Origin: Leptothermofonsia sichuanensis E412
Lineage (GTDB): Bacteria; Cyanobacteriota; Cyanobacteriia; Leptolyngbyales; Leptolyngbyaceae
Direction of reading: 5' to 3'
Length of the DNA stretch: 64,000 nucleotides
Assembly: GCF_019891175.1 (NCBI RefSeq)
Contig: NZ_CP072600.1
Coordinates: 2,046,001 to 2,110,000, forward strand
Position numbers and translations under genes: made by a program. Under the pieces are notes generated by a model. That model saw only the letters and a program-made list of their open reading frames with translations. It was not told the DNA's origin and searched no databases. Shown one piece after another: positions 1,850 through 58,286 of the stretch (its first letter is position 1; each line of letters starts with the position of its first letter).

Positions 1850-4351
1850 ATGAGCCGCCAACTGGTGTCTCGAATCCTGAAACATCCTGTTGTTGTGGCC
1901 AGTATTTTGATCACAGGACTGACGCTTGCTGTGAGGCAGGCAGGTGGACTGCAAACGCTGGAACTGATGGCGTTTGACCAGATGATGCGGCAGTGCCCTG
2001 ATGCCGGGCGTGACCAGCGGTTGTTGATTGTATCTATTACGGAAGAGGATATTCGGACTCAAAAGCGCTGGCCCATTTCAGATGAAGTGGTCGCTCAATT
2101 ACTGGAAAACCTTCAGCAATACCAGCCCAGAGTGATTGGGTTGGATCTTTATCGGGACTTGCCCCAATTACCGGGGGAGGGGGCATTACGAAAGCAGCTT
2201 CAAGCCCCGAATGTGATAACCGTCAAGCTGTTAGGCGATCACGATAGCATTGGAGTGCCGCCGCCACCGGACATCCCTGAGCATCGGGTCGGGTTCAGTG
2301 ATATTCTGCTGGATCCAGACGCAGTGGTACGGCGAAATTTGCTCTATGCCGAATCAGAGACCGAAAAGCTTTATTCGTTTTCCCTCAGGCTGAGCCTTGC
2401 CTACCTGAAACCATTGAACCAATCCATGCAGGTAATGACTGACTATCTGCAAATTGGTAATACCCGTTTTTTCCCGTTAAACCATAACTCTGGGGGCTAT
2501 CAGAGACTGGATGATCTGGGCTATCAAGTTTTGCTGAACTACCGGACTCCCAGTGATATCGCCCGCAAGGTAACCCTGACCCAGGTTTTGAGTGGGGCGA
2601 TCAGACCTGACTGGGTAAAAGACAAGTTGGTATTAATTGGTACAACGGCTCCCAGTGCGAAAGATTTATTCCTCACCCCCTTTAACCTCACAGGGGCTGA
2701 AAGTCCCAAGACGTCTGGAGTCGTGGTCCACGCGCAGATGGTTAGTCAGATTTTGGGGACGGTGCTGGATGGGCGATCGCTCTTCTGGTACTGGCCGGAC
2801 CCGGTTGAAATGCTCTGGATCTGGGGCTGGTCTCTGGTGGGTGGCGCTCTAGGTTGGCGCTTCCGCCACCCCTTTGCTCTGGCGGGTGGGATAGCCGCCG
2901 TAGGACTGGGATTGGTCGTGATTTGCCAGGGTGCATTTATGGGCGCGGGATGGTTACCCTTTGTACCGGCTGTCATCACACTGGTTAGCACCGGAACAGG
3001 GGTGGTCGTCTACCGGATGCTCCATGACACGTTTCATGATGACTTAACGGGCTTGCCGAATCGTGCTCTGTTCATGAAGCAACTGCGGTCGGCGATCGCT
3101 CGCTACAAAAACATGCCCCATTCCCCATCCGATCCAGAATCCCCAACTGTGGCTGTTCTGTTCCTGGGACTGGATGGATTCAAGGTCATTAACGATAGTT
3201 TTGGGCATCGCCTGGGTGATCAATTACTGGTTGTGACGACTCAACGGTTAAAAAGCTGCCTGAAACCGATAGATAAGCTTGCCAGGGTGGGGGGGGATGA
3301 GTTTGCCATCCTGCGGCCAGATATCAAGACAACGGATGAAGTCACCTATCTGGCAGACCAGCTCCAGCAGCGCGTTACGTTGCCTTACAGACTCAATGGG
3401 CAGGAGGTGTTTACCACTGCCAGTGTGGGGATTGTTTTGGGTCAAGCCAATTCTGACTATGAGCCAGAGGACATTTTACGAGATGCGCACACGGCCATGC
3501 ACCGGGCAAAGGAGTCTGGTAAAGCCCGCCATAAGGTGTTTGTCACCGGGATGCGGGATCAGGTAATGACCCGCTTGCAGCTTGAAACTGATTTGCGTCG
3601 TGCAATTGAACGTCAGGAATTTCAACTCCACTATCAGCCCATTGTTTGCCTGGAAACCGGCAAAGTCGCTGGCTTTGAAGCGCTGGTGCGCTGGCACCAC
3701 CCCCAACGGGGACTGGTTTCTCCGATTGAGTTCATCCCGGTGGCGGAAGAAACCGACCTCATTCTTCCCCTCAGCCGATGGATTATCCAGGAAGCCTGTA
3801 ACCAGATCAGATGCTGGCAAAAACAGTTTCCGAAAGATCCTCCTTTACTGGTCAGTGTGAATTTTTCGGGGAGACAGTTTTCCCAGACCAATCTGGTGGA
3901 ACAGATTGAGCAGACGCTTCAGGAAACAGACATTGATGGGCGCACACTAAAACTAGAAATTACTGAAACCACAGCCATGACGGATGTGGAATCCACCATA
4001 GCCCTGCTGCAACGGTTAAAGTCTCTGAACCTGCAACTCAGTATTGATGACTTCGGGACGGGTTACTCTTCCCTCAGTTACCTGCACCGCTTTCCCACGA
4101 ACACCATTAAAGTGGATCGGTCTTTTGTTAGCCGGATGGGTGACGGTAGCGAAGATGCTCAAATTGTCCAGACCATCATTATGCTGGGACACAACCTGGG
4201 TATGGATATTGTGGCAGAAGGGGTGGAAACCGCTGAACAACTGGCTCAGTTGAGATCGCTCCAGTGCGAATTTGGTCAGGGTTATTTCTTTTCCAAACCG
4301 CTGACGGCGGCTCAAGCAGAAGCCTTGCTGAAGCGTGATCCCCAGTGGTAA
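1850..4351 (+). CDS. CHASE2 - GGDEF - EAL membrane protein (c-di-GMP turnover)
   Basis: A sensor protein that probably makes and/or degrades cyclic di-GMP. An N-terminal membrane segment is followed by an extracytoplasmic CHASE2 domain (about residues 20-320), two or three membrane helices (WIWGWSLVGGALGW onward), a GGDEF domain with intact RVGGDEFAIL, and an EAL domain with FEALVRWHH, EITETTAM, DDFGTGYSSLSYL, KVDRSFV and VAEGVET. Both catalytic signatures look intact. The inhibitory RxxD site before GGDEF reads KPID, so classical product inhibition may be absent. I place the start at 1850, where AGGA sits 9 bases upstream; an in-frame ATG at 1811 has no such site. It converges on opcA. Confidence 0.9.
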   Translation: MSRQLVSRILKHPVVVASILITGLTLAVRQAGGLQTLELMAFDQMMRQCPDAGRDQRLLIVSITEEDIRTQKRWPISDEVVAQLLENLQQYQPRVIGLDLYRDLPQLPGEGALRKQLQAPNVITVKLLGDHDSIGVPPPPDIPEHRVGFSDILLDPDAVVRRNLLYAESETEKLYSFSLRLSLAYLKPLNQSMQVMTDYLQIGNTRFFPLNHNSGGYQRLDDLGYQVLLNYRTPSDIARKVTLTQVLSGAIRPDWVKDKLVLIGTTAPSAKDLFLTPFNLTGAESPKTSGVVVHAQMVSQILGTVLDGRSLFWYWPDPVEMLWIWGWSLVGGALGWRFRHPFALAGGIAAVGLGLVVICQGAFMGAGWLPFVPAVITLVSTGTGVVVYRMLHDTFHDDLTGLPNRALFMKQLRSAIARYKNMPHSPSDPESPTVAVLFLGLDGFKVINDSFGHRLGDQLLVVTTQRLKSCLKPIDKLARVGGDEFAILRPDIKTTDEVTYLADQLQQRVTLPYRLNGQEVFTTASVGIVLGQANSDYEPEDILRDAHTAMHRAKESGKARHKVFVTGMRDQVMTRLQLETDLRRAIERQEFQLHYQPIVCLETGKVAGFEALVRWHHPQRGLVSPIEFIPVAEETDLILPLSRWIIQEACNQIRCWQKQFPKDPPLLVSVNFSGRQFSQTNLVEQIEQTLQETDIDGRTLKLEITETTAMTDVESTIALLQRLKSLNLQLSIDDFGTGYSSLSYLHRFPTNTIKVDRSFVSRMGDGSEDAQIVQTIIMLGHNLGMDIVAEGVETAEQLAQLRSLQCEFGQGYFFSKPLTAAQAEALLKRDPQW

Positions 4352-4420: not shown

Positions 4421-4485
4421 GGTGCCCTCTGTGTCTCTGTGGTAGAACCCTAAGCTTTTCGGTTTATTTAATCCTCAATCCTAAG
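4421..4485 (+). repeat. Dispersed repeat, CTCTGTGTCTCTGTGG family, copy 1
   Basis: GGTGCCCTCTGTGTCTCTG, then TTTTCGGTTTATTTAATCC and CCTAAG. A close copy is at 41642-41705, a reverse copy at 11493-11557 and a partial copy at 40141-40172. It overlaps the last bases of opcA. Confidence 0.75.
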
Positions 4486-5812
4486 TTTTCAGCTTGAGGA
4501 TTTTGACAGCAACGGCAAGGCTTTCCTCATACAGCACTTCCCGTCCCCAGCGTTGCAACTGCTGACTGAGTAAAAATTCGGCTTTTTGATCGTTGATGGC
4601 AGTCACCATCTCGGTTCGAGCAGCCTGGGCACTGCCACCCGCTTCCAGGCGCATACAGCCTGTGGTTTCAGAACACAGAATGGTGTTGCAATTTGCCTGG
4701 GGATTGGTCGATGCCAGCCGTAAACCAATCAAATCTCCCACAATTTCGCCCGCATCAGCAGTGGGAATCGCTGCCAGCTCAGCTTCAATCTCGCGCTGAT
4801 GGGGTCCGGTAAACTTGACGTGCCTCAGGTCATAGTCACCGCCAGTTTCCAGGTATGCCACAGGTTCCCACTGGAGACGGCTGGCCAGCCAGCCCAGAAA
4901 CATCAGTGCCTGGGCGTCATTCCCTTTCTCATAGTCAATCATGACGCGGTCTATTTCGCCAATGTCGGCTCTCCGCTCTGGCGGGTCAAAACTTTCAGCG
5001 GTCAATTCCTGCCAGGGTAGCAGGCGGTGCCAGTTGAGGTCAGCCACGGAAATGCCACGCTCAATTAACTCCTGAATCTTGAGGAATTCTGACTCTGGAT
5101 CGCTGAAGTAGCTGGAGTCCATGATGATGCAGTGGCAAGCTTCAACTACTTTTTTAAATAATTCTTGCTCTGGGTTAGGGGTTGCCTTCCACCAGACAAA
5201 CTTGGGCAGGTTTTGGATAAACAGGGAAGCAGTCAGATCACCAACCCGGTTGAGGGCTTCCTTTGTGCCCCTGAGCGTGATGTACTCAGAACAGATCAGA
5301 TGATCACCCGATACTTTCTGTACCGGACAATAAGCAGACACCTCCGCCGTCACTCCCTGATCTTCCCCCAGCGTGGGACAGAGAGTAATAATCCGACGGG
5401 GGTTGAGAGCCGCGATCGCATCATTTACACTGAACCCCCGTAGATTGGGATTGGAAATTTGCATCTTTTCAGGCGGCAGCTTGGCCACTTCCTGTCTTAA
5501 GCGAGCCAGTGTTTCAGGATCTACCCGGCCAGTGATGGGCAGTCCATAAGTCCTCTGCGCTTCATGAACCGCTGCCTTCGTTAACGGTCCATGAATCCCA
5601 TCCACGGGTCCATCATAAAAGCCCAGGATTGCCAGGAGTTGCTGGAACTCCTCTGGCTCATAGATGACCATACAGAAGGTAGAGGCTCTGGTTGCGACCA
5701 GAGCGGCATCATCGACGCTCTGACTGTTCCAGATAGAATTCAACTCCTCCTCAATTTCATGCAAGGAAATGTCCTTCGGTTTTTGGAGTGCAACGGCAGA
5801 AGTTGTAATCAT
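4481..5812 (-). CDS. opcA: OpcA, glucose-6-phosphate dehydrogenase assembly/activation protein
   Basis: Cytoplasmic allosteric activator of glucose-6-phosphate dehydrogenase, linking the oxidative pentose phosphate pathway to redox state. The 443 residues show the OpcA scaffold (TLCPTLGEDQGVTAEV, LPKFVWWKATPNPE, DSSYFSDPE, WHRLLPWQELTAESFD, DYDLRHVKFTG). After a short N-terminal segment, residues about 52-110 form a peptidoglycan-binding-like module (LLAILGFYDGPVDGIHGP, GLPITGRVDPETLARL). I believe cyanobacterial OpcA proteins usually carry this module; without a signal peptide it is unlikely to touch the wall. It is last in fbp-tal-zwf-opcA and starts 92 bases after zwf. Cysteines such as those in CSEYITL and CNTILCSETTGC are candidates for redox control. 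Confidence 0.93.
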   Translation of the reverse strand: MITTSAVALQKPKDISLHEIEEELNSIWNSQSVDDAALVATRASTFCMVIYEPEEFQQLLAILGFYDGPVDGIHGPLTKAAVHEAQRTYGLPITGRVDPETLARLRQEVAKLPPEKMQISNPNLRGFSVNDAIAALNPRRIITLCPTLGEDQGVTAEVSAYCPVQKVSGDHLICSEYITLRGTKEALNRVGDLTASLFIQNLPKFVWWKATPNPEQELFKKVVEACHCIIMDSSYFSDPESEFLKIQELIERGISVADLNWHRLLPWQELTAESFDPPERRADIGEIDRVMIDYEKGNDAQALMFLGWLASRLQWEPVAYLETGGDYDLRHVKFTGPHQREIEAELAAIPTADAGEIVGDLIGLRLASTNPQANCNTILCSETTGCMRLEAGGSAQAARTEMVTAINDQKAEFLLSQQLQRWGREVLYEESLAVAVKILKLKT

Positions 5813-14319: not shown

Positions 14320-17300
14320 TTACAGGCGGAGTGGGTTTTCGAACGCTCCCAAAGCTTTGAGGCTCGCTCTTTGAGCTTCGCTGATACCTGTGGTTCCGGT
14401 GATGTTAGTTTCCTGGTAAGGTCTGGGTCCTCTCAAAATTTTGAGGCATTCACGGGTAGAAATATCCCAAAAGCGAATCGTTTCATCTTCACTACCACTG
14501 ATCAAAACAGGTTGTAGCGAAGGGGGAGAGGAGGAAGAGGACCCATGGATCCAGCCGAAAGTGAGAGACCAGATGTGGCTGGTGTGTCCCTCCAGGGAAG
14601 TCAGTAGTTCTCCGGTGCGGCTATCCCAGAGTTTAATGATCGAGTCTTCGCCACCACTGGCAATTACTGTGCCGTCTGGACTGAAGGCAACCGTCTGGAC
14701 ACGGGTATGGTGCCCATGCAGGACATGTAAGCACCTGCCGGTAGACACCTCCCAGATCCTGACGGTGCGATCGCGGCTGGCACTGGCAAGTAGATGACCA
14801 TCGGGGCTGAAGGTTAAATCCCAGATTCGTTCTGTATGGCCATCAAACTCCTGAATCTGTTTGCCTGACTTGGGTTCCCAGAGCTGAATTACCGGGTTAT
14901 CTCCGGCGCTGGCAAGGATTTGACCATCGGGGCTGAAAGCCGTTGAGAAAACCCGCCCTGTAGATCCCTGTAAAACCTTGAGGCATTCTCCAGTGGCAAC
15001 GTCCCACAGTCGGACAGTACAGTCAAAACTGCCACTGGCAAGGGTAAAACCATCCGGACTGAACTGGACTGAGCAAATCCAGTGGGTATGCCCTTTCAGC
15101 ACCTGAAGGCAATGACCACTGGAAACATCCCATAACCGGATGGTGTGGTCAAACCCACCGCTGGCAAGCATCGCAGTTGTTTTCTTCGATGGCGGGATTG
15201 GGGAGAAAGCGACCGCCAGAATCCAGTTGGTATGTCCATGCAGAGTTTTCAGGCACTCGCCAGAGTCAATCTGCCATAGTCTGATGAGGTTATTGGAGCT
15301 ACTGCTTGCCAGAATAAGGGGGAAAGCACAGGTTGCCGGTTGCTGGCTGAAGTGCTCTTGCGGGGGAGCGCTCTGGGATTTTCCTGCCGATGATAGGGAT
15401 GCGTTACCTGCCAGGATGGGGTTCTGCAATGCCTGAGAGGGTGGCACAGCAACTGCCAGAATGGCATCACTGTATCCCCTCAGAGTTGTTAAGCACTGGC
15501 CAGTGCGGATGTCCCAGAGCTTGATTTGCTGATCCAGACTACCGCTGGCGAGGAGGTGGTGGTGGGAGCAGGCGATCGCCCAAACATCATTGGTATGTCC
15601 CCGCAGAATCCGGATGCACTCTCCAGTGCGGCTATCCCAGAGGCGCAGTGTGTAATCTTCGCTGCCGCTGGCAATCCTGTATCCATCGGGACTGTAGACT
15701 ACAGAACGGATGCAGGCAGTGTGTCCCTCCAGTTGTTTCAGGCAGCTCCCATCAGCCAGTCGCCACAGTTTGACGTGACCATTCGCTCCCCCCGTAGCAA
15801 CGCTCTGACCGTCAGGGCTGACGGCGATCGCCCAAACTCCCTGGCTCTGGGCATTGAACGTTTGCAGACATTCACCCGTGTGGGCATTCCAGACCCTGAC
15901 CCAATCGTCCCCACAGCCACTGACCAGAATTGATGAGTTCATACCTGGTTTGCCCGCCTGTAAAGCTGGTTTCGGTCCAGGCACAAAGGCAAGTCCCCGC
16001 ACCCAGTTGTGGTGCCCCGTTAGCGTCCGCAGGCATTTCCCGGTCGTCGGTTCCCAAAGTTTGACCGTGCCATCAGCGCCACTACTTGCCAGCAGGGTGC
16101 CGTCCGAGTTAAACACAACCGCCAATGTCCAATCACAATGATCCTCCAGGGTTTGCAGACATTGCCCGGTTTCGGTATCCCAGAGTCGGATACGGGCATC
16201 TTCGCTACTACTTGCCAGGATTTTGCCGTCAGGGCTGAGGGCAACACAGCTACACCAACTGACTCTGCTGCGAAACTTAAGCTGGTGTTCGCCATCGGCA
16301 ATCTGCCACAGATAGATGCCACTCATGTCAGTAGCTGCCAGAAGCCTGCCATCCTGGCTCAGATCAACGGCCCAGACATTGCCCAGGGTTTCTGTAAACA
16401 CGGATTTAGCCAGATCGGCATGGGCAAAATTCACCCTGTACAGAGGCACCCCCTGAAGATAAGCCTGCCATACCACCAGATTTGAGAAGTCTGAGCCAGT
16501 CAGGTCGATGTCCAGATAATGCATCAAATTGAGCAGATTGCCAGCCGCATATCCAGGGATATGGGCAAACTCTGTCCGTAATTTCTGAAGCAGTTGCCTG
16601 AGTTTGAGTTCCACAGCTCTGGGGGTATGGAACTGTTCACGGAGGCGATCGCCAATGCGTTGCAAACTAATCCGTACCTGACTTTCTCGGATATAGCTTT
16701 TGGTCTGTGCCTTGATAAAGGCATGGCTCATCAGCAAATGGATATCGTCCGCGCAAATTTCCTGGCAGACCTGCTCCACAAATACCTCAATCATGTACTC
16801 CATAACCACAGGTTGTTGGGTAAACCCATGGGGGCTAAGCTCAATTACAAACCGTCGTCCCAGGGATTGGAGAACTTCGGGTAACTGGCGCTTGAGCGAT
16901 GGAGACAGGATGTCATCTCGCAGTTCGGACAGGGAAACCACTTCCCGGTTGATGGCCAGCCAGTACATCACGTCTTTTTCTGCCTCAGACAGGCGATCCA
17001 ACTGACGATGCAGCAGGTCACGAATGTCATCAAAGACCAGGGCACCCTGGCTCACAGAATCCAGAAACCGGGAGATGTTGCTGCTGAACAAGTCCTTGAT
17101 CACTGAAGCCACCATCTTGAGGGCAAGGGGATTGCCCGCATAGTGATCAATCAGGCATTCCCACTCTACAGCTGAGGCAGAAAAGTGCCCTCGAATTTTG
17201 AACAGTTCCTGACCATCCTGACTGGTCAATCCTTGCAGATGAAATGACCGAACGGGTGTCTGCTCTCCTTTCTGAATAGCCACTTCCATCGGCTCTTCCC

Positions 17301-18093
17301 GACTGGTTAGCACCAGGCAACTCTGGTGAGGCACTTCTCCCAGTCGCTTCAGAAGTTCACCATAATCTTCATAACCCTGACGGTAATGGCCGGCAGAATG
17401 ACTATTTCCTGGAGAAGACATGCCATTTTGCAAGATCATTTCGGCATTGTCCAGGATTAGTAAGCAGCGACGCTGCTTCAAATACTCCATCAACTGAGAC
17501 AACTTCCCATCGATCGCCTCAGGGATCTCAGCACCCGCTCCATTGGCAAAAAATTGGAGCAGACTGGTCAATAGCTCTTTCAGGGGTGGAGCATTTCGCA
17601 GCGATCGCCAGATCAGCCAGTCAAACTCTTCCTGCACCTGGTGGGCCAGTTTAACGGACAGCGTGGTTTTGCCAATGCCGCCCGTGCCCAGGAGGGCAAT
17701 CAGCCGGCAACGGTCATGCACAATCCACCGGGACAAGGTTGCCAGTTCTTCTGTACGGCCAAAAAAGGTTGAAACATCCACCGCTTCACCCCAGTCCCGG
17801 TGTTTGGTGTCTGGAGCAGGGGAAAAAGGACCGCCAGGACGATGACGCACCCACCGCCCAATCACCGCCTTAAAATTTTGTCGAGTCACCCGTTCGGCAA
17901 AAGCATCCGACAACAACCGCCACATCTGGGCACCCACTGCACGAATATACTCAGTCGTGAAATTCCAGTCTTCTGCAATTTCAGGATAGGTTTTGCCTGC
18001 CCAGGCCTGACGAAATACCAGCTCTTGAGTGTCGTTCAACCGTACAGGTTGCAAAACCTCATCAATAACTGTCAGGGCTTCTTCAAGTGTCAT
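14320..18093 (-). CDS. NB-ARC/WD40 STAND protein (vMAP-type HTH, ATPase, 14 WD repeats)
   Basis: A 1257-residue signal-transduction ATPase. Residues 1-85 resemble the vMAP N-terminal helix-turn-helix (LNDTQELVFRQAWAGKTYPE). The NB-ARC ATPase has Walker A GTGGIGKTT (136-144), Walker B LLILDN (211-216) and LVLTSREEP. A helical and pentapeptide-like linker follows (IDLTGSDF, VNFAHADLAKSVF), then 14 WD repeats, enough for two seven-bladed propellers, many ending in GH and RLWD or KLWD. Blades 4, 8, 9 and 14 carry long Ser/Pro-rich insertions. Such STAND proteins act as ligand-triggered oligomers; some relatives defend against phage. No effector domain other than the HTH region is visible. Confidence 0.9.
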   Translation of the reverse strand: MTLEEALTVIDEVLQPVRLNDTQELVFRQAWAGKTYPEIAEDWNFTTEYIRAVGAQMWRLLSDAFAERVTRQNFKAVIGRWVRHRPGGPFSPAPDTKHRDWGEAVDVSTFFGRTEELATLSRWIVHDRCRLIALLGTGGIGKTTLSVKLAHQVQEEFDWLIWRSLRNAPPLKELLTSLLQFFANGAGAEIPEAIDGKLSQLMEYLKQRRCLLILDNAEMILQNGMSSPGNSHSAGHYRQGYEDYGELLKRLGEVPHQSCLVLTSREEPMEVAIQKGEQTPVRSFHLQGLTSQDGQELFKIRGHFSASAVEWECLIDHYAGNPLALKMVASVIKDLFSSNISRFLDSVSQGALVFDDIRDLLHRQLDRLSEAEKDVMYWLAINREVVSLSELRDDILSPSLKRQLPEVLQSLGRRFVIELSPHGFTQQPVVMEYMIEVFVEQVCQEICADDIHLLMSHAFIKAQTKSYIRESQVRISLQRIGDRLREQFHTPRAVELKLRQLLQKLRTEFAHIPGYAAGNLLNLMHYLDIDLTGSDFSNLVVWQAYLQGVPLYRVNFAHADLAKSVFTETLGNVWAVDLSQDGRLLAATDMSGIYLWQIADGEHQLKFRSRVSWCSCVALSPDGKILASSSEDARIRLWDTETGQCLQTLEDHCDWTLAVVFNSDGTLLASSGADGTVKLWEPTTGKCLRTLTGHHNWVRGLAFVPGPKPALQAGKPGMNSSILVSGCGDDWVRVWNAHTGECLQTFNAQSQGVWAIAVSPDGQSVATGGANGHVKLWRLADGSCLKQLEGHTACIRSVVYSPDGYRIASGSEDYTLRLWDSRTGECIRILRGHTNDVWAIACSHHHLLASGSLDQQIKLWDIRTGQCLTTLRGYSDAILAVAVPPSQALQNPILAGNASLSSAGKSQSAPPQEHFSQQPATCAFPLILASSSSNNLIRLWQIDSGECLKTLHGHTNWILAVAFSPIPPSKKTTAMLASGGFDHTIRLWDVSSGHCLQVLKGHTHWICSVQFSPDGFTLASGSFDCTVRLWDVATGECLKVLQGSTGRVFSTAFSPDGQILASAGDNPVIQLWEPKSGKQIQEFDGHTERIWDLTFSPDGHLLASASRDRTVRIWEVSTGRCLHVLHGHHTRVQTVAFSPDGTVIASGGEDSIIKLWDSRTGELLTSLEGHTSHIWSLTFGWIHGSSSSSPPSLQPVLISGSEDETIRFWDISTRECLKILRGPRPYQETNITGTTGISEAQRASLKALGAFENPLRL

Positions 18094-44185: not shown

Positions 44186-45286
44186 ATGAGCCCCATATCT
44201 ATGGTTAGCTACGGAACCTTCCCTAAATTCTATCCCCGCCATTTGTTAACGCAATTAGCCAGTTGCCTTACTAGCGGTTGTTTGCAGGTATCAGACGGCT
44301 TGACTTCCTGGCTGATTTATCTCGATCAGGGCAAGCTGGTTTATGCGACCAATTCTGTCAAACCGTTTGAGCGGCTCGATCGCCATTTACGCCAGATGAA
44401 TCGTCAGGTACCTACGCTGGAACGGACTATTCGGGTGCAGGCGCGGCTCTTGTTTGAAGCCGTAGCCGACAGCCGTTCTACGGGGGTTAGTGCTGACTAT
44501 CGGGCAATTCGCTGGTTAGTTGAGCAGCAGCATTTGAATGTGACTCAAGCCGCCACGCTGATTGAGACGATCGCCCAAGAAGTGCTGGAGTCCTTTCTGA
44601 CCTTAACAGAAGCAACCCATGAATTAATTGACAAAGAAAAACTGGATGATTATCCCAAACTTTGCCAGATTGATTTGCAGTCAATCATAGGTTCTGATCA
44701 GGAGCTAGTAGAACCACTACCACCAGAGATGAAACCCTGGGCGCGATCGTCTGAGAAACTCAATCTATTTTCGAGGCATGATGCAGAGCTATCCCATGAA
44801 GTAGAGGTATTGCAGGAGCCTTCTTCATCTTCTGAGGATCTGACTGAGGCAATCAATCCTACCTGGGCAATAGAATCTGTCCATCCAACGTTCAGAAATG
44901 CTCTGGCACAATCCTCTAAAAGCCATTACATTATTGCCTGCATTGATGATAGTCCTGTAGTTCTGAAAGCCATCAAATCATTTTTAGATGATGCCAGCTT
45001 TACAGTGATTATGATTAATGACCCAATCAAAGCATTGATGCAGGTGATTCGTAGCAAACCCGATGTCATTCTATTGGATGTAGGAATGCCTAATCTGGAT
45101 GGCTATGAGTTGTGTTCTCTCCTGCGCAGACACCCTAGCTTCAAAAATACACCCATCATTATGGTGACAGGCAATACTGGATTCATCGATCGGGCAAAGG
45201 CGAAATTGGTCGGGGCATCCGGTTATTTGACCAAGCCATTTACACAGCCAGAGCTATTGAAGATGGTATTTAAGCACCTATCGTAA
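44186..45286 (+). CDS. pixG: PATAN-domain response regulator (PixG/TaxP/PilG type)
   Basis: First gene of the operon. Residues about 10-160 form the PATAN (PatA N-terminal, DUF4388-like) domain (LTSGCLQVSDGLTSWLIYLD, QGKLVYATNSVKP). After a variable linker comes a C-terminal receiver domain (about 248-366; IIACIDDSPVVLKAI) with phosphoacceptor Asp298 (LLDVGMPNLDGYE) and TKPF. In related systems PatA-like regulators act on type IV pilus motors and are phosphorylated by the hybrid CheA. The next gene starts 32 bases downstream. Names differ between systems (pixG, taxP1, hmpA); pix is chosen because the MCP in this operon has GAF domains. Confidence 0.85.
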   Translation: MSPISMVSYGTFPKFYPRHLLTQLASCLTSGCLQVSDGLTSWLIYLDQGKLVYATNSVKPFERLDRHLRQMNRQVPTLERTIRVQARLLFEAVADSRSTGVSADYRAIRWLVEQQHLNVTQAATLIETIAQEVLESFLTLTEATHELIDKEKLDDYPKLCQIDLQSIIGSDQELVEPLPPEMKPWARSSEKLNLFSRHDAELSHEVEVLQEPSSSSEDLTEAINPTWAIESVHPTFRNALAQSSKSHYIIACIDDSPVVLKAIKSFLDDASFTVIMINDPIKALMQVIRSKPDVILLDVGMPNLDGYELCSLLRRHPSFKNTPIIMVTGNTGFIDRAKAKLVGASGYLTKPFTQPELLKMVFKHLS

Positions 45287-45318: not shown

Positions 45319-45696
45319 ATGAGCGTAACTTTAATGGGCACCATTTTGATTGTTGAGGATACTCCTTCTGAAATGGAGTTGATCAGCTACTATCTGCGCG
45401 AAAGTGGCTACAGTGTGGTTGGTGCGGTCAGTGCAAAGGAAGCGTTGAGTCGAGCAGTGGAATTAAAACCAGAGGTGATTATCACCGATGTGGTCATGCC
45501 TGGCATGAGCGGGTTTGAACTATGTCGCAGTCTGAAAAAACATCCTGCGACTGAAAACATCCCGGTTATTATCTGCACCTCCAAAAGTCAGGAGATTGAT
45601 CGCCTGTGGGGGATGAAGCAGGGTGCCAGTGCTTATCTGACAAAGCCTTTTACCTGTGAACAACTGATTCGGGCTGTTAAATCCGTTTTTGGTTAA
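45319..45696 (+). CDS. pixH: CheY-like response regulator
   Basis: A single receiver domain of 125 residues. The acidic pocket is in ILIVEDTPSEMEL, the phosphoacceptor is Asp57 (IITDVVMPGMSGFE), and the conserved Thr and Lys are in IICTSKS and YLTKPF. No output domain, so it signals by protein contact, probably to the pilus motor. Second in the operon. Confidence 0.9.
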   Translation: MSVTLMGTILIVEDTPSEMELISYYLRESGYSVVGAVSAKEALSRAVELKPEVIITDVVMPGMSGFELCRSLKKHPATENIPVIICTSKSQEIDRLWGMKQGASAYLTKPFTCEQLIRAVKSVFG

Positions 45697-45815: not shown

Positions 45816-46313
45816 ATGAATATCTCCACCCTGGTTCCCCACTCGGTCCGTTCGCACAAGATTCTGGGAGATCCTTACCTCAAGGTTCAACTGGAACCCA
45901 CCGTGTATGCGGTTTTGCTGATGAAGCAGGTGCTGGAAGTAATGGAGGTGCCTGCTTCGCGTCTGACGCCCATGCCCAATATGCCTGCCTGTGTTTTGGG
46001 GTTGGTCAACCGCCGCAGTCGAGTTTTCTGGACTGTTGACCTGGCAAAGATGTTGGGGATGGGATGTCTGGATTCCAGCCTGCCGCAGCACACGATCGCA
46101 ATCATTCGGGTTGGGCAAACTCCTCTGGGGGTTTCTGTGCAACACGTTGAAGGTATGTGCTGGCTGGCACCTGAAGCAATTCAGTCCCCTCCCAATTATC
46201 TACCATCGACAATTTCACCCTACTTAAACGGTTGTGTGTTGCAAGACCAGGAAGTACTGCTGGTGCTGAGCGCTGAGAGCATTGTGCGATCGCCAGTCTT
46301 GCACCAGAACTGA
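45816..46313 (+). CDS. pixI: CheW-like coupling protein
   Basis: 165 residues of a CheW domain that would bridge the receptor and the CheA kinase. Recognisable parts are YAVLLMKQVLEVMEVPASRL, CVLGLVNRRSRVFWTVDLAK and VGQTPLGVSVQHVEGMCWLA. Third in the operon, 119 bases after the CheY gene with a 30-bp repeat between. Both spacers around it contain repeats, so transcript stability or internal promoters may vary. Confidence 0.88.
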   Translation: MNISTLVPHSVRSHKILGDPYLKVQLEPTVYAVLLMKQVLEVMEVPASRLTPMPNMPACVLGLVNRRSRVFWTVDLAKMLGMGCLDSSLPQHTIAIIRVGQTPLGVSVQHVEGMCWLAPEAIQSPPNYLPSTISPYLNGCVLQDQEVLLVLSAESIVRSPVLHQN

Positions 46314-46566: not shown

Positions 46567-49500
46567 ATGGTCAATCAAACCAACGCTGCCTCTGATATGT
46601 CTCGGTTTCAGCCAATTCAGCCGGTCTGGAATACACCATCTTCCTCTTCTATCAGTACTGAGCTAACCGCTCAACTTCCCATTACGCCCAATCCCAAACA
46701 GAAGGTATCAGTGATTCAAAAATTTTCCGATTTACCGGTTGGACGCAAACAATTCATTGCCCTGTTGGTCTGCCAACTGGTACCCATTCTGGGCTTCAGC
46801 GTAGGGACGATCCTGATGTTGACCAGCCAGTCAAAAACCCAGTTGCTCGACCAGGCAACATCAGAAGTTGCCATTTTAGAAGCTAACTACAACCTTAAAG
46901 TTGACCAACTGGGGTTGAGTGCTCGTGGTTTGGCGAATAATTCTATTCTGATCAATGCCGCAAAAGCTCAGATTGGTTCAGGTGAGTTGCGTCCTGAGTT
47001 ACAGGAACAGGTGCGGGAAATCTTGAGGAAAGAGATGCAAACTCATCAGTTAGAGTACGTGACTCTGGTGAGCAAAGATTTACGAATCATTGGAAATGCC
47101 AATGCCAATCGGCAGGGAGAAACGTTTGACCCGAATGGGTTGGTGAGTGCGGCGATGCGGAATGGACAGCAAATTAAAGCCAGTGCGATCGCTCCCTGGA
47201 GCGAACTGATGAAAGAATCAGTGTCACTTCCTACTGGGTTCACGAACCGGGATGCGCTGATTCGCTATGTGATCACCCCAGTTACTGATCCCAACACACA
47301 AGACGTCATTGGTTCACTGGTGGTTGGAATTTTGGTGAACAATACCTTAGCTGTTTTAGGAGGTACAACGAGCAGTCTGGGCGATGGCTACAGTGGAGTT
47401 TATTTCCGTCAACCGAATGGACAGTTTGGGTTAGCAACGGCACTAAACAATACTGCACTGGACAAAGGCAATGTCACCCAGGAGTCATCCCGGAGCAATA
47501 TTTCCATTTCTGACCCGTTTTTGTTGAAGGCAGCGGCTGCCGCCCCCAAAGGAGAAACAGTAACTGGACAGGTCACAATTGATGGTGTGCCCTACACTGT
47601 GGCTGCCAAAGCCGCTCCTAACAGGATTGTTGAAACAGCCAATGGAGCCTTCCCTGCCTATAGCCGACAGCCTGCGGCAATTCTGGTCAGGGGTATTCCG
47701 AATGAGCGCCTGTATGGTTTACTTCGCGCCAGTCTGGTGCAACAGGGAACAGCTCTTTTCGTGGGACTTGTTATGGTTCTATTCTGTGCCTCGGTTTTGC
47801 GACGGACCGTGACTCGACCCCTCCAGGATTTGGAGCGGGCAACCCTGGCATTTGCCCGGGGCGATCGCACCGCCAGAGCTGAAGTCTCATTTAAAGATGA
47901 AGTTGGACGTCTGGCAACCTTGTTTAACTATCTGACAGACCGTATCGCTGACTCAGAACAGGCGCTGACTTTGGAAGCTGAACGCCAGCGTCATCAGATA
48001 CGGGAAGCCCAGTTGTTGAGTGATGTGATTGTCAATATTCGACGATCTATCAAAATCGAAGATATCATGCGCACTAGCGTCAACGAAATTCGCCAATTTA
48101 TGGGTGTTGAGCGTGTATTACTCTATCGTTTCAATGACGATTACAAAAGTGGTACTATCACGGCTGAATCAGTTGCCCCCGGCTGGGTGAAAGCACTTGG
48201 GCAAACCATCCATGATCCCCTTTCTGAGGATGCCCTTGATCGGTTTAACAGCGGTAGGGTTTCCTTTATCAACAACTGGGAAGAAGCCAAATTGAACAAC
48301 TGCTACTGTGAAATTTTGGAGCGGCTTCAGGTTAAAGCCAATATGGTTGTTCCCATCAAGTCCAACAACAAACTCTTTGGTTTGTTGTGTGCTCACTCCT
48401 GTAGTAGCCCCCGTGAATGGAAAGAATCAGAACTAGATTTTTTGGGGCGCCTCGGTGCTCAAATTGGCTACGCACTTGACCAGGCAGATTTACTTGAACG
48501 CCAGAAAGAGGAGTCCAGGCTTAGTCGCCTGTTGAATGAAATCACTCTTAGCATCCGTGAAAACTTCAGTAAAGAAAGTATTCTCAACACCACTGTAAGG
48601 GAAATGCGCCGAGTATTAAATGCAGACCGGGTGGTTGTGTACCAGTTCAATTCTGATATGACTGGCACCATCATTGCAGAGGCGATCAGTCTGGGTTGGT
48701 TACCCCTGCTTGGTGAAACCGTCACGGATCCCTTCCGTGAGGGGTTAGTTGACCAATACAGAAATGGACGGATTCGAGTTATGAATGATATTTATGCTGA
48801 AGGTCTGACCGAGTGTCACCGCGAATTGCTGGAAGGCTTTCAGATTCGTGCCAGTATCACTGCTCCATTTCTACATGGCAGCCGATTGATGGGGCTGTTG
48901 TGCATCCATCAGTGTTCTGATCCACGCGAATGGAAAGAAGCAGAAATCAACTTTGTCCAACAGCTATCCAATCAGCTTGGTTTCGCTATAGAACAGGCGA
49001 TTCTATTTGAAGAAAAAGAGAAATCGCGTTTGCAAGCGGAAACAATTTTGCAAGAACAGCGCCAGCAGCAAGAAACGTTACAGCGGCAATTGGTGTCCTT
49101 GCTGGGAGATGTGGAAGGGGTAGCAATGGGCGACCTGACCGTCCGGGCAGATGTGACGGCGGGAGACATTGGCACCGTTGCCGACTTTTTTAACTCGATT
49201 GTGGAAAGCTTGCGGCAAATTGTGACTCAGGTTAAACAATCTGCTTTGCATGTCAACATGGCGATCAGTGAACATGAAAGTGCCATTCGGGAACTGGCAA
49301 AAGAAGCGCTGAGACAGGCTCAGGAGACGACCCTGACGCTCGACTCCGTTGAGCAAATGACCCATTCAATTCGGGCAGTTGCCGAGAATGCCCGTCAGGC
49401 TGCTGAAGTAACGCGCACTGCATCCAGCACGGCGGAAGCTGGGGGTGCGGCCATGGATCTGACTGTGCAGAACATTCTGACCCTGCGTGACACGATTGGC

Positions 49501-50064
49501 GAAACGGCGAAGAAGGTGAAACGCCTGGGTGAATCATCCCAGCAAATTTCTAAAGTTGTCTCGCTGATCAATCAGATTGCCTTACAAACCAATCTCCTGG
49601 CAATCAACGCTGGAATTGAAGCCGCTCGCGCTGGAGAAGAAGGCCAGGGATTTGCAGTTGTTGCCGAAGAAGTCGGTGAACTGGCTGCCCGTTCTGCCGC
49701 TGCCACCCGCGAAATTGAGCAAATTGTAGAAACCATTCAACGGGAAACCAGCGAGGTGGTGGAAGCGATGGAGCAGGGCACAACCCAGGTAGTAGAAGGT
49801 ACCTATCTGGTTGGCAACGCCAGGCAAAGTCTGGAGCAAATTATGATGGTTTCTCGCCAGATTGATTCTCTGGTACAGTCCATTTCAGAAGCCACGGTGT
49901 CCCAGGTGCAAACGTCTCAAACCATTTCTTCCTTAATGGAGGAAGTGGCTCAGGTTGCAGAACGAACTTCCAATTCCTCTCTTCAGGTGTCTGATTCCCT
50001 ACGCCAGACTGTAGCGATCGCCAGGGAACTTCAGAAGTCTGTTGAGACGTTTAAGGTTGGATAG
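46567..50064 (+). CDS. pixJ: Methyl-accepting receptor with two Cys-bearing GAF domains (PixJ-like)
   Basis: A 1165-residue membrane receptor. Order: membrane helix (63-86), extracytoplasmic region (about 90-390), second helix (about 394-412), HAMP, GAF1 (about 495-635), GAF2 (about 665-805), HAMP-like segment (about 845-895; [16 protein letters not shown]), MCP signalling domain with the hairpin tip [20 protein letters not shown]. This is the layout of PixJ/TaxD1. GAF1 has Cys579 in [16 protein letters not shown] and GAF2 has Cys750-His751 in [15 protein letters not shown], both at the position used to attach bilins in cyanobacteriochromes. Neither has the second Cys of the DXCF type (GAF2 reads TDPFREGL), so red/green-type chemistry, or no chromophore, is possible. 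Confidence 0.88.
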
Positions 50065-50355: not shown

Positions 50356-53300
50356 ATGTCACAGGACAAGGAATTTGAAATTCGACGGCAGTTTCTCGAT
50401 GAAGCGCAGGAATACCTGAATACATTGGATTCAGCCATATTAGGTCTGGCACATCATCGAGTTGATGGGCAGAAAATCAATGCGGCTTTGAGGGCTGCCC
50501 ACTCGATTAAGGGTGGTGCAGGCTTGATGGGGTTTGAGGTATTGAGCCATCTGGCGCATCGTCTGGAAGACTCGTTCAAGGCTTTAAAGGTGCAAAAATC
50601 CCTGGAGATTGACACTGACCTGGAAAATCTATTGTTAGCCGCCGTGGGTTGCCTGCGCCGGGTGATCGAGGGCGATCGCCAGGCGACTCCCCCTGACCCG
50701 GACTGGCTGGAAACAGATGGCTATCCTATCTTTGAGCAACTGCATCAGATCCTGGGAGATCCTCAGGATGAAGATGCCCACTCTATCCTGTCCCCTGAAG
50801 AAGGGCAGGATGTTATTCCCATGCTGTTTGAGACAGAAGTAGAGGGCTGTTTGCAGCGGTTGGAGGCGGTACTGGAAGATCCAGATCAGCCCTGTTTACG
50901 GGAAGAAGTAACGATTCTGGCGCAGGAACTGGCCGGATTAGGAGAAATGCTCCAGCTTGCTCCATTCACCCGCCTGTGCGAATCTGTGACCCAGGCTCTG
51001 GATCAGGTACCAGACAGAGAGCGGGATGGGGCGATCGCTCAGGTTGCCCTGAAAGCCTGGCGCAGGACCCAGGCACTGGTTTTAACGGGACAGTTTGACC
51101 TGCTACCAACCGAAATTGAGCTGCCCCAGCGGTTCGATAGCACCCCGTCTGATAGCACCCCGTCTGATAGCACCCCGTCTGATAGCACCCTGTCTGATCG
51201 TGTCTGTGACTTGCAGGAATCAGCGATTGACCCCCAATTTATGACCGTGGTTGCTGAAACCTCTCTGCCAGCGATCGCTGCCCTTGAACAATCCAGTTCA
51301 ACGCCAAAAACGCAACCAGACTCTACCCGGAAACGCTCTACAGTCCGGGAATCTCAAGTTACTGATTTCAAAATTTTGGACACGGGTGCAGATACATCCG
51401 ACACCATTGAAGAAGATCAGGATGCAACGGTGCGGGTTTCTGTACGCCAGCTCAACCAGTTGAATGACCTGTTTGGCGAACTCGCCATCGATCGCAACGG
51501 ATTAGACCTCTATCTGAAGCGCCTGCGAAACCTGACCGTTACCTTGCAACAACGGCTGAAAACCCTGGAGCATCTCAATGCTCAAATGCGAACTGCCTGC
51601 GACAAAATACTTTCGCCTGGGTTAAAGCCTCCAATTCCGCTGCTGACAGGTTCCGCGGTCCACCCACTGGCTGCCTGCACCAGATTAACTGAAGCGGATC
51701 GGGGAATTGACGAGCGAGAAAGCCTCCACAGCAAATTTGATGTCCTGGAAATGGATCGTTACAGTGATCTGCATCTGCTGGCTCAAGAGGTCATGGAAAC
51801 AACGGTTCAAATTCAAGAACTGACCAGTGACCTTGAACTCAGCCTGGATGATGCCGAACAAACCAGTCGTAGCCTCAGTAAAACGGCCAGACAATTGCAA
51901 ACCAACCTGACCCAGATTCGGATGCGACCGCTGTCGGATGTGGTAGACCGCTTTCCCCGTGCCCTGCGGGAACTGGCATTGCAATATGGCAAACCAGTAC
52001 GGCTCAATATTGTTGGTGGCAGCACTCTGATTGATCGCAACATTCTGGAGCAGTTAAACGACCCTCTCATGCATTTGCTGCGGAATGCCTTTGATCATGG
52101 CATTGAAGATCCGGCAACCCGCAAAGCACGAGGCAAACCGGCAGAGGGACAGATTGAAATTCGGGCTAACCATCGGGGCAACCGTACCTACATTACCGTA
52201 AGTGACGATGGGGGTGGCATTCCTCTGGACAAAGTTCGCGATCGCGCCGAGCAAATGGGACTGGATGCCACCCTGCTTGCCAATGCCAGCGATGAAGAAC
52301 TGCTGACTCTCATCTTTGAACCAGGCTTTAGTACCACTGACCAGGTTACCGCCCTATCTGGGCGGGGGATGGGCATGGATGTGGTGCGGCATAACCTGAG
52401 ACGCATTCGGGGTGAAATCACGGTCAATACCCAGGCTGGAACTGGCACCACCTTTATCCTGTCTGTCCCCTTTACCCTGTCCATTGCGCGGGTGCTGCTG
52501 GTCGAAAGCCACGGCATGTTACTGGCGTTTCCCACAGACGTGGTCAAAGAAATGTTGTTGCTGAAGCCAGAGGATGTCATCAATACAGCAGGTAGTGAAG
52601 CCCTCAACTATCAGCAGAGGCTGGTGCAACTTGTGCGCCTGCCTCAGTGGCTTGTGTTTCATTGTCCCCGTCACCCCCACAACCTGGAAGTTCCCCCCGC
52701 CATCAGTGCTCCGGTTGTGTTGATCGTCAACCAGGGCAATCAACCCGTTGGGCTTCAGGTTGATCGCTCCTGGGGTGAGCAGGAAGTGGCTATCCGGCGT
52801 ATTGAGGGCAGTATTCCCATGCCACCTGGGTTCAACCATTGCATCATTATGGGGGATGGGCGCGTGGTGCCCCTGGTCAATGTATCCGACCTGTTGCACT
52901 GGATCAGTCATTATGAACGCCCTTCTGATCCTCCACCGGCTTCACCTCAACCCCTCAACCTGGCCAGTGCCAGCCGGGCAGCACTGCCTCCAGTTGTCCC
53001 TCCCACACCAGTGCAAAAAGCCACTATCCTGATTGTGGATGATTCCATCAATGTCCGCCGCTTTCTGGCACTGATGCTGGAGCGAGCAGGCTATCGAGTT
53101 GAACAAGCTAAAGATGGTCAGGATGCCCTGGAAAAACTACTTTCTGGGTTGTCTGTTGAGGCAATCCTTTGCGATATCGAAATGCCCCGTCTGGATGGCT
53201 ACGGATTCCTATCTAAAGTCAAAGCTATCCCCCAACTGGAATCAATCCCGGTCGCCATGCTCACTTCCCGCAGTGGTGAGAAACACCGTCAACTTGCCAT

Positions 53301-53388
53301 AAATCTGGGTGCTGCCGCTTACTTTGCCAAACCCTACAATGAACAGACCCTGCTACGGGCGATCGCTCAACTGGTGGCGACCAACTGA
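50356..53388 (+). CDS. pixL: Hybrid CheA-type histidine kinase with receiver domain
   Basis: 1010 residues. Hpt domain (about 5-105) with phosphorylatable His49 (AAHSIKGGAGLMGFE); variable region; dimerisation helices; HATPase (about 555-710; LLRNAFDHGIEDP, VSDDGGGIPLDK, GRGMGMDVVRHNL); CheW-like domain (about 715-855); C-terminal receiver with Asp940 (LCDIEMPRLDGYGF) and AKPYNEQTL. It would autophosphorylate under receptor control and pass phosphate to the receiver proteins. Residues about 261-280 are encoded by four 15-bp units (DSTPS), which may vary in number. Last gene of the operon; convergent with treY. Confidence 0.92.
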   Translation: MSQDKEFEIRRQFLDEAQEYLNTLDSAILGLAHHRVDGQKINAALRAAHSIKGGAGLMGFEVLSHLAHRLEDSFKALKVQKSLEIDTDLENLLLAAVGCLRRVIEGDRQATPPDPDWLETDGYPIFEQLHQILGDPQDEDAHSILSPEEGQDVIPMLFETEVEGCLQRLEAVLEDPDQPCLREEVTILAQELAGLGEMLQLAPFTRLCESVTQALDQVPDRERDGAIAQVALKAWRRTQALVLTGQFDLLPTEIELPQRFDSTPSDSTPSDSTPSDSTLSDRVCDLQESAIDPQFMTVVAETSLPAIAALEQSSSTPKTQPDSTRKRSTVRESQVTDFKILDTGADTSDTIEEDQDATVRVSVRQLNQLNDLFGELAIDRNGLDLYLKRLRNLTVTLQQRLKTLEHLNAQMRTACDKILSPGLKPPIPLLTGSAVHPLAACTRLTEADRGIDERESLHSKFDVLEMDRYSDLHLLAQEVMETTVQIQELTSDLELSLDDAEQTSRSLSKTARQLQTNLTQIRMRPLSDVVDRFPRALRELALQYGKPVRLNIVGGSTLIDRNILEQLNDPLMHLLRNAFDHGIEDPATRKARGKPAEGQIEIRANHRGNRTYITVSDDGGGIPLDKVRDRAEQMGLDATLLANASDEELLTLIFEPGFSTTDQVTALSGRGMGMDVVRHNLRRIRGEITVNTQAGTGTTFILSVPFTLSIARVLLVESHGMLLAFPTDVVKEMLLLKPEDVINTAGSEALNYQQRLVQLVRLPQWLVFHCPRHPHNLEVPPAISAPVVLIVNQGNQPVGLQVDRSWGEQEVAIRRIEGSIPMPPGFNHCIIMGDGRVVPLVNVSDLLHWISHYERPSDPPPASPQPLNLASASRAALPPVVPPTPVQKATILIVDDSINVRRFLALMLERAGYRVEQAKDGQDALEKLLSGLSVEAILCDIEMPRLDGYGFLSKVKAIPQLESIPVAMLTSRSGEKHRQLAINLGAAAYFAKPYNEQTLLRAIAQLVATN
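51136..51195 (+). repeat. In-frame 15-bp tandem repeat, four units, within the CheA gene
   Basis: GATAGCACCCCGTCT three times and once with T for C. It encodes DSTPS units in a linker after the Hpt region. Being a multiple of three, unit gain or loss keeps the frame. Confidence 0.95.
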
Positions 53389-57146: not shown

Positions 57147-58286
57147 ATGCCCAAGATCCTGGTTATTGATGACGATGTAGCAATTCAAATTGTTCTTAAG
57201 AAATTGCTGGCGGCTCAGGGCTACGAGGTCATTGTCGCAGGCAATGGGCGGGAAGGCACAGGACTGGCCGCAGAACATCAGCCTGCTGTGATCATCTGTG
57301 ACTGGATGATGCCTGGAATGGATGGGTTAGAGGTTTGCCGCCGGATTAAGGCTAATCCACTCCTGGCAGGGATTTATTTCATTCTGTTAACCTCCCGAAA
57401 TACAGTGGAAGACCGGGTGAGGGGATTGGACAACGGAGCCGATGACTTTCTCTGCAAACCGATTGAACTGGATGAGTTGACCGCGCGAGTACGGGCAGGA
57501 TTACGCCTTTATCAGATTAATCAGGACTTGCAGGCCCAAAAGCGGATGCTGGAGTCGGAATTTAATGAAGCCGCGGAATATGTGCGATCGCTCCTGCCCC
57601 CACCCATGACCGGCAAGCTCAAAATCGACTCCCGCTTCATTCCTTCCCGCAGACTGGGGGGAGATTGTTTTGACTACTACTGGCTTGACCCTGACTATCT
57701 GGCCATTTACCTGCTGGATGTGTCTGGGCACGGATTGGGAGCCGCACTGCCCTCGATCTCGGTGCTGAATTTGCTGCGATCGCAGTCCATGGATGGCGTC
57801 AACTTCTACCAGCCTGATTCGGTGTTGCGCGTGTTAAACGAAACCTTTCAGATGGATCACCAGAACGATAAATTCTTCACCATCTGGTACGGCGTTTATA
57901 ACCAGGTTAAACGCCAGTTAATTTACTCCAGCGCAGGTCATCCCCCAGCCATTCTGCTCTCTCAACCGACACGAGGAAAACCCGCGGCAACCCTGCTCAA
58001 AACGTCCAGTATGCCCATCGGCATGTTACCGGACACCCGGTTTGTCAATCAACGCTGTGAAATCGACCCTTCCAGCGTCCTTTACATCTTCAGTGATGGG
58101 GTCTACGAAATCCGGCAACCGGATGGAAATGTCTGGGGTTTAGACGCCTTTGCCAGTCTGCTAATCAAGGATCAGCGTTCTATTCACCAGTTCGGACTAG
58201 ATTACATCCTGGAACAGATCAAAAGGATTCAGCCTAAGGAGTCCCTGGATGATGATCTCTCTTTGCTAAGAATCAGTTTCAGTTAA
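57147..58286 (+). CDS. Response regulator with PP2C (SpoIIE/RsbU-type) phosphatase domain
   Basis: 379 residues. Receiver domain 1-125 with Asp52 (IICDWMMPGMDGLE), LLTSRN and CKPIELDEL; a coiled-coil linker (about 130-150; LQAQKRMLESEFNEAAEYVRS); and a PP2C domain with GGDCFDYYWLD, LLDVSGHGLGAAL, SSAGHPPAIL, FSDGVYEIRQ and DDDLSLL, the metal-binding aspartates intact. It would dephosphorylate an anti-anti-sigma (STAS) protein when its receiver is phosphorylated. The divergent RsbW-like gene next door is the natural opposing enzyme. Confidence 0.92.
   Translation: MPKILVIDDDVAIQIVLKKLLAAQGYEVIVAGNGREGTGLAAEHQPAVIICDWMMPGMDGLEVCRRIKANPLLAGIYFILLTSRNTVEDRVRGLDNGADDFLCKPIELDELTARVRAGLRLYQINQDLQAQKRMLESEFNEAAEYVRSLLPPPMTGKLKIDSRFIPSRRLGGDCFDYYWLDPDYLAIYLLDVSGHGLGAALPSISVLNLLRSQSMDGVNFYQPDSVLRVLNETFQMDHQNDKFFTIWYGVYNQVKRQLIYSSAGHPPAILLSQPTRGKPAATLLKTSSMPIGMLPDTRFVNQRCEIDPSSVLYIFSDGVYEIRQPDGNVWGLDAFASLLIKDQRSIHQFGLDYILEQIKRIQPKESLDDDLSLLRISFS

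Follow-up and report, generated by a model that had tools for sequence, protein, structure and literature searches.

The locus examined here raises the question of whether a taxis receptor with two GAF domains senses light through bilins and, if so, which of its cysteines shape the response. It lies in a window of 64,000 nucleotides from Leptothermofonsia sichuanensis E412, the window being the whole stretch of DNA that was analysed. The colour of cyanobacteriochromes (CBCRs) depends strongly on the placement of extra cysteines, and the taxis receptors of a sizeable cyanobacterial set (75 of 388 sampled genomes) carry cysteines at positions for which the literature searches found no measured role in the parts of the sources that they covered.

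The receptor gene and its operon

The receptor gene is embedded in an operon whose genes follow each other on one strand in the order PATAN-response regulator, CheY, CheW, receptor and CheA hybrid kinase. The features of the operon and of the receptor are as follows:

44186..45286, + strand: PATAN (DUF4388)-response regulator, PixG-like (operon domain content)
45319..45696, + strand: CheY-like response regulator, PixH-like (operon domain content)
45816..46313, + strand: CheW-like protein, PixI-like (operon domain content)
46567..50064, + strand: PixJ-type receptor, membrane/HAMP-GAF1-GAF2-MCP, 1165 aa (ORF, Pfam; membrane helices by inspection only)
47794..47949, + strand: HAMP domain, aa 410-461 (Pfam PF00672)
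48019..48489, + strand: GAF1, aa 485-641, C-x-C type (Pfam, phmmer, tree, model, fold match)
48214..48216, + strand: Asp550 of GAF1, with a one-residue gap (no DXCF Cys) after Pro551 (alignment); the Asp of relatives is reported to contact the bilin pyrrole nitrogens (PMC6336887)
48301..48309, + strand: Cys579-Tyr580-Cys581, canonical bilin Cys position plus +2 Cys (alignment, clade counts, codons)
48388..48402, + strand: Cys608-x-His610-x-Cys612, a Cys at the putative D-ring position (AnPixJg2 350), the pocket His and a Cys that is common in DXCF domains as well (alignment)
48520..49008, + strand: GAF2, aa 652-814, DPFREGL...CHR type (Pfam, phmmer, model, fold match)
48727..48729, + strand: Asp721 of GAF2; as in GAF1, one residue is missing thereafter (DP-F) (alignment; number counted back from Cys750)
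48814..48819, + strand: Cys750-His751 of GAF2, canonical bilin Cys position and stacking His (alignment)
48901..48915, + strand: Cys779-x-His781-x-Cys783 of GAF2, a Cys at the putative D-ring position, the pocket His and the common Cys (alignment)
49405..49956, + strand: MCP signalling domain, aa 947-1130 (Pfam PF00015)
50356..53388, + strand: CheA hybrid kinase (Hpt, HATPase, CheW, receiver), PixL-like (operon domain content)

The gene set is the same as that reported for the tax1 (PixGHIJL) cluster in a review (PMC5812497). Two GAF domains joined to an MCP domain, and an operon with PATAN-response regulator, CheY, CheW and CheA genes, are likewise reported for the PixJ/TaxD1 receptors, Synechocystis PixJ1 and TePixJ among them (PMC5812497), which also share the canonical Cys in a GAF domain. 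The combination of a GAF-MCP receptor with these partner genes is thus that of a PixJ/tax1 photoreceptor. In contrast to PixJ1, which is reported as blue/green with one bilin-binding GAF (PMC5812497), the window receptor has no DXCF GAF at all, and while TePixJ carries DPCF, GAF1 of the window is of the C-x-C type. A DXCF bilin-binding GAF as in TePixJ is, however, not strictly defining for PixJ, since AnPixJ is reported as green/red.

The host genome (one contig, 6.4 Mb) contains three MCPSignal matches. The second (97 kb) is located behind genes for a PATAN-response regulator, CheY and CheW and has no Pfam GAF match; CheA, CheR and CheB genes lie next to the third, whose sensor is a four-helix bundle. 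Consequently, the window receptor is the only GAF-MCP protein found in the host genome. The host also encodes the bilin reductases PcyA, PebA and PebB, all over the NCBIfam cut-off, and two heme oxygenases, which allows the synthesis of both PCB and PEB.

Cysteines at the bilin position and domain fold

In the translated ORF, the first residue of the motif NNCYCEIL is number 577 and that of TECHRELL number 748, with the codons TGC for Cys579, TGT for Cys581 and TGT for Cys750. The preliminary description of this DNA had placed Cys579 and Cys750-His751 at the canonical chromophore position. This is confirmed by phmmer alignments to PDB chains, where both stand opposite the Cys of the C-H/C-Y motif: Cys579 in all five alignments listed (6bhn, 5zoh, 3vv4, 3w2z, 6oap) and Cys750 in all five of its own (6oap, 6mgh, 7lsc, 3vv4, 2m7u). 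Among the structures used here, 3w2z and 5zoh are AnPixJg2, 6oap is PPHK, 6mgh miRFP670nano, 7lsc nano3 and 4glq TePixJ; 6bhn is presumably NpR6012g4, and 3vv4 and 2m7u are presumably TePixJ. Both domains therefore show the CBCR arrangement of a canonical Cys followed by His or Tyr on the pocket helix (C579-Y580, C750-H751).

The structural comparison with AnPixJ and TePixJ GAF domains that had been proposed as a check gives the same result. AlphaFold2 models of GAF1 (pLDDT 85.3) and GAF2 (pLDDT 90.5) match these domains over their full length with Z of about 24. For the whole domain, GAF1 reaches Z 24.4 against 3w2z, its best match, and 24.0 against 4glq, and GAF2 reaches 24.6 and 23.8, respectively, its best value being 25.7. 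Both domains thus have the GAF fold of solved CBCRs; phytochrome GAFs, though, match both models too (Z > 22), so that the fold alone proves neither bilin binding nor CBCR status.

The DXCF Cys had been described as missing from both GAFs, and this stands, as DPLSE of GAF1 and DPFRE of GAF2 align with DPCFRE. Both domains are one residue shorter directly after Asp-Pro, and the second Cys of DXCF CBCRs is absent for this reason.

Pocket residues in the two domains and their relatives

For comparison, 351 distinct GAF domains were collected from 30 loci of a relatives search (58 genomes), 79 named-record loci and 90 loci of a profile search (388 genomes of the class). A GAF1 clade of 84 members (support 0.94) was defined with FastTree after masking of the C-x-C columns. 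Outside this clade, 232 of 267 GAFs have a Cys at the canonical position. The Cys at the bilin position is inherited and does not occur there by chance.

Nine bilin contacts are reported for miRFP670nano: D56, F59, Y67, R71, T84, C86, Y87, L90 and H117 (PMC6336887, PMC10357936). GAF2 carries D F Y R T C H L H and keeps eight of the nine; the only difference from the miRFP670nano pocket at the compared positions is a His in place of the stacking Tyr87, as is the case in AnPixJg2 and TePixJ. GAF1 carries D L F R N C Y I H, keeping Asp, Arg, Cys, Tyr and His and changing F59 to Leu, Y67 to Phe, T84 to Asn and L90 to Ile. Throughout the GAF1 clade, His117 and H/Y87 are invariant (84/84), Asp is found in 82 members, Cys in 80 and Arg71 in 61. 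Two members that lack both cysteines of C-x-C also lack the Asp, while two without the canonical Cys (RHC) retain the +2 Cys and the Asp. The aligned Cys is missing from two of 27 GAF2-type domains. In the 348 of 351 GAFs with five key sites aligned, the Asp is present in 288 of the 312 that have the Cys and in 22 of the 36 that lack it, counts of related, non-independent sequences to which no probability is attached.

Receptor architecture and distribution

A GAF1-type domain was found in 82 receptors, and 72 of these are readable, meaning that an MCP match is present and the first GAF is preceded by 300 aa or more; strongly diverged GAFs may be missed in these counts. At least one DXCF GAF follows the GAF1-type domain in 51 of the 72 (37 CHC-DXCF, eight with two DXCF domains, two CHC-DXCF-GAF2, one CHC-DXCF-DXCF-GAF2, two EYG-DXCF and one RHC-DXCF). 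No GAF besides the GAF1-type domain was found in 19 (18 CHC, one RHC), among them the receptor of locus L048 (Phormidesmis priestleyi), and one receptor is CHC-CHC. The window receptor (CYC-GAF2, without DXCF) is the only GAF1-GAF2 receptor among them. The CHC-DXCF-DXCF-GAF2 receptor belongs to Tildeniella nuda (L038), and the nearest relatives of the window GAF2 are fourth GAFs read from genome G032 (L003, L116; support 0.947). The simplest history would be that the window receptor lost one or more middle DXCF domains.

Matches of at least 204 bits to the GAF1 profile are present in 75 of 388 sampled genomes, all of them of the family codes f1, f13 and f24. The CHC domains of three of the 75 (G096, G256, G262) are those that branch right beside the clade; a further domain (G069, 210 bits) is CHI and also lies outside. 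Named records with a GAF1-type domain include Stenomitos, Tildeniella, Phormidesmis, Nodosilinea, Elainella and Moorena.

A probable photoreceptor with one or two bilin-binding domains

The reading favoured here, with a probability of roughly 0.6, is that the product of this gene serves a PixGHIJL (tax1)-type operon as its photoreceptor, in which GAF2 binds a phycobilin and GAF1 probably does so as well, both domains forming a separate CBCR branch with Cys608 and Cys779 instead of the DXCF Cys. Bilin binding is favoured because the pocket Asp, His and Cys are retained, because the GAF1-type domain is the sole GAF found in 19 of 72 receptors and because of the host bilin genes and the tax1-like operon. 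From sequence, alignment, fold match, conservation and gene context, we infer chromophore binding, light response and output: GAF2 would very probably hold a phycobilin, most likely phycocyanobilin, via Cys750, and GAF1 would probably hold a bilin via Cys579. Light would then isomerise the bilin, the helices would pass the change on to the MCP domain, and type IV pilus motility would be steered by CheW/CheA together with the PATAN and CheY regulators. Among the literature matches listed, from searches that were not by member name, no spectrum or zinc blot for a member of this branch was found in the text covered.

The C-x-C motif of GAF1

The CYC of GAF1 had been called unusual. This holds for its Tyr, which occurs in one of 84 clade members, the window domain itself, and whose codon TAC is one C-to-T change away from His. 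It does not hold for C-x-C, which is the rule of the family: the clade motif is CHC in 79 members, RHC in two, EYG in two and CYC in one. As the orthologues have CHC, the idea that CYC is a freak was rejected. The preliminary description had overlooked both this conservation and the further cysteines (608, 779) at the putative D-ring position. The named-record collection used a pattern containing C[HY]C, which favours C-x-C; the 75 members from pattern-free searches only comprise 70 CHC, two RHC, two EYG and one CYC, where 70/75 may be somewhat high since C-x-C members had gone into the profile itself. Of the 84 members, 82 retain the +2 Cys and 80 the bilin Cys; outside the clade, a +2 Cys is found in three of 267 domains, all of them CHC and branching beside the clade. 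By a helical-wheel guess, the +2 Cys might face away from the pocket. Of 160 DXCF domains, 146 have Leu or Ile at this place, which argues against simple exposure. Among the matches listed in the literature searches, whose coverage included a minority of subscription papers, neither CHC nor C-x-C is named for CBCRs.

These counts bear on a competing explanation, according to which GAF1 is a non-binding coupling module, C-x-C serves a redox, metal or contact role and light is sensed by GAF2 only. The precedent is PixJ1 of Synechocystis, for which the preliminary description had named the second GAF as the only presumed bilin binder; this agrees with the report that PCB is bound by the second GAF alone and not by the first (PMC5812497). 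The pocket changes of GAF1 (F59 to Leu, Y67 to Phe), the variable Arg71 and a +2 Cys that is kept slightly more often than the bilin Cys, even in two members with Arg for the latter, would fit such a module. It is less likely, however, given that the pocket Asp, His and Cys are so widely retained in the clade, that 19 of the readable receptors have no other GAF found and that the two members without C-x-C lost the Asp as well. If the GAF1-type domain is a photosensor, the CBCR rules are extended; if it is not, C-x-C has a conserved non-light function in a phototaxis-type receptor.

Several relatives have lost the motif. Nine such GAFs come from neighbouring single-GAF receptor genes, with Arg, Ser or His at the Cys and Arg at +2; three GAFs of locus L085 (CHR) are further motif-loss relatives. 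Second receptor genes with a single GAF were observed at several Leptolyngbya-type loci (L037, L039, L040, L041, L042, L045, L161 and others). The single GAFs of these second receptors have lost the bilin Cys and often the Asp or the pocket His too (e.g., RYR, LICAQSC); judged by these residues, they are probably natural non-binding relatives of GAF1. L085 itself (1605 aa ORF) encodes a five-GAF MCP protein with two GAF2-type domains, and its other three GAFs keep the bilin Cys and the Asp and lack the +2 Cys and Cys350. In a genome of the same genus as the host (G001), the receptor gene (L026) ends at the contig end before GAF1, and the GAF1 profile gave no match above 8.1e-47 there. A contig scan with the whole receptor protein as query confirmed no relative.

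A cysteine at the putative D-ring position

PMC11284453 speaks of "the Ala residue" only, without the number 350. This residue is probably Ala350 of AnPixJg2, which would face the D ring of the bilin, because the spacing is equal (1015 to 1076, 289 to 350) and Ala350 lies two residues before Tyr352. The window residues at this position are Cys608 in GAF1 and Cys779 in GAF2. Cys350 is found in all 84 members of the GAF1 clade and in 24 of 27 GAF2-type domains (Ser in three), and in five of 160 DXCF domains (Ile 129, Val 26), a set selected for literal DPCF and the canonical Cys. Considering all 351 GAFs, 192 have the DXCF Cys only, 119 Cys350 only, 28 neither and 12 both. Parsimony puts the changes on the tree at 12 and 11; the inverse pattern of the two is clear by counts but based on few events, about a dozen. 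A strict exchange of the DXCF Cys for Cys350 is weakened by the domains with both or neither. Cys350 also persists in related GAFs without the bilin Cys, which may speak for a structural role. The twelve GAFs with a Cys at both positions come from L008, L009, L010, L014, L015, L023, L102, L105, L106 and L109.

Dual-Cys CBCRs (DXCF, insert-Cys and CXDXXL/RB2 types) resemble the window domains in having an extra Cys besides the canonical one. In the window domains, however, the extras are located at +2 and at the putative D-ring position, unlike the sites described in PMC11284453 and PMC5240096. It is conceivable, though doubtful, that these domains represent an undescribed CBCR lineage whose second Cys has shifted from DXCF to the D-ring face (350), with the +2 Cys of GAF1 providing a joint light and thiol-redox response or a second bilin attachment point.

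Lineage and colour

The motif WXDXXL defines the red/green (XRG) domains, and a second non-DXCF line, the NpR3784 lineage, is described as lacking both the DXCF Cys and the Trp and as having typical members that are red/green (PMC11284453). With XRG CBCRs such as AnPixJg2 and NpR6012g4, the window GAFs share the fold, the canonical Cys, the Asp and the lack of the DXCF Cys. They differ in having no WXDXXL Trp, its position being occupied by Ile in GAF1 (I-H-D-P-L) and Val in GAF2 (V-T-D-P-F), in having His instead of Tyr at 352 and Cys instead of Ala at 350, and in forming a separate branch. The NpR3784 lineage and PPHK are alike in lacking DXCF Cys and Trp and include the PDB sequences closest to GAF2, but the window GAFs are one residue shorter after Asp-Pro, branch separately and carry Cys at 350 instead of the Val of PPHK and miRFP670nano.

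An IQ-TREE analysis of a partly random subset (118 sequences, motif unmasked) places GAF1, GAF2 and the motif-loss relatives in a clade of 44 members (UFBoot 96) that is free of XRG, NpR3784/PPHK and TePixJ references. Within it, the GAF2-type clade has UFBoot 100 and GAF1 alone a weak 61, and the motif-loss GAFs are nested inside GAF1 with weak support (54-66). The whole clade falls on the TePixJ/DXCF side and not on the red/green side (UFBoot 80-85).

A red/green photocycle, if the domains bind bilin at all, had been deduced from the missing DXCF Cys, and this deduction is not supported. As neither GAF has the XRG Trp and both fall in a separate clade, red/green does not follow from the lack of the DXCF Cys, and no colour is predicted. 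That both GAFs are ordinary red/green CBCRs is accordingly quite improbable, even though they lack the DXCF Cys and keep the Asp, the best PDB sequence match of GAF2 is PPHK, reported as a Pg/Pr protein (PMC11480761), the next is the NpR3784-derived miRFP670nano (PMC10357936), and the Val at the Trp position of GAF2 resembles the NpR3784 line (PMC11284453). Motif and tree both led to the rejection of the red/green assignment. The placement of GAF2 as an NpR3784-line domain, suggested by its sequence matches and the Val, is not supported by the tree, in which the clade excludes PPHK and miRFP670nano (UFBoot 96). On sequence grounds, both GAFs appear to form a branch separate from the red/green and NpR3784 lines and may sense light in a way for which there has been no measurement so far.

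Other GAF domains of the host

The host genome has 64 Pfam GAF matches, two of which are those of the window; analysis of the stretches holding 60 others yielded 40 alignable domains. A Cys is found in the bilin column of 15 of these 40, followed by Leu or Ile instead of His or Tyr in four of the 15. The Cys alone is therefore weak evidence, and it is the full pocket set that counts. These host domains could be taken to mean that neither window GAF binds bilin and that the cysteines are kept by descent only, which is very improbable, since Asp, His and Cys are retained together, the GAF2 pocket is complete at the compared positions and loss of the Cys more often goes with loss of other pocket residues.

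Other genes in the window

About 4 kb past the taxis operon, positions 57147-58286 encode a response regulator with a SpoIIE-type phosphatase domain. Elsewhere in the window are a CHASE2-GGDEF-EAL protein, probably a c-di-GMP enzyme (1811-4351), an OpcA-like G6PDH assembly protein (4481-5812), which matches a peptidoglycan-binding domain close to the N-terminus, and a WD40-repeat-rich protein of 1257 aa (14320-18093).
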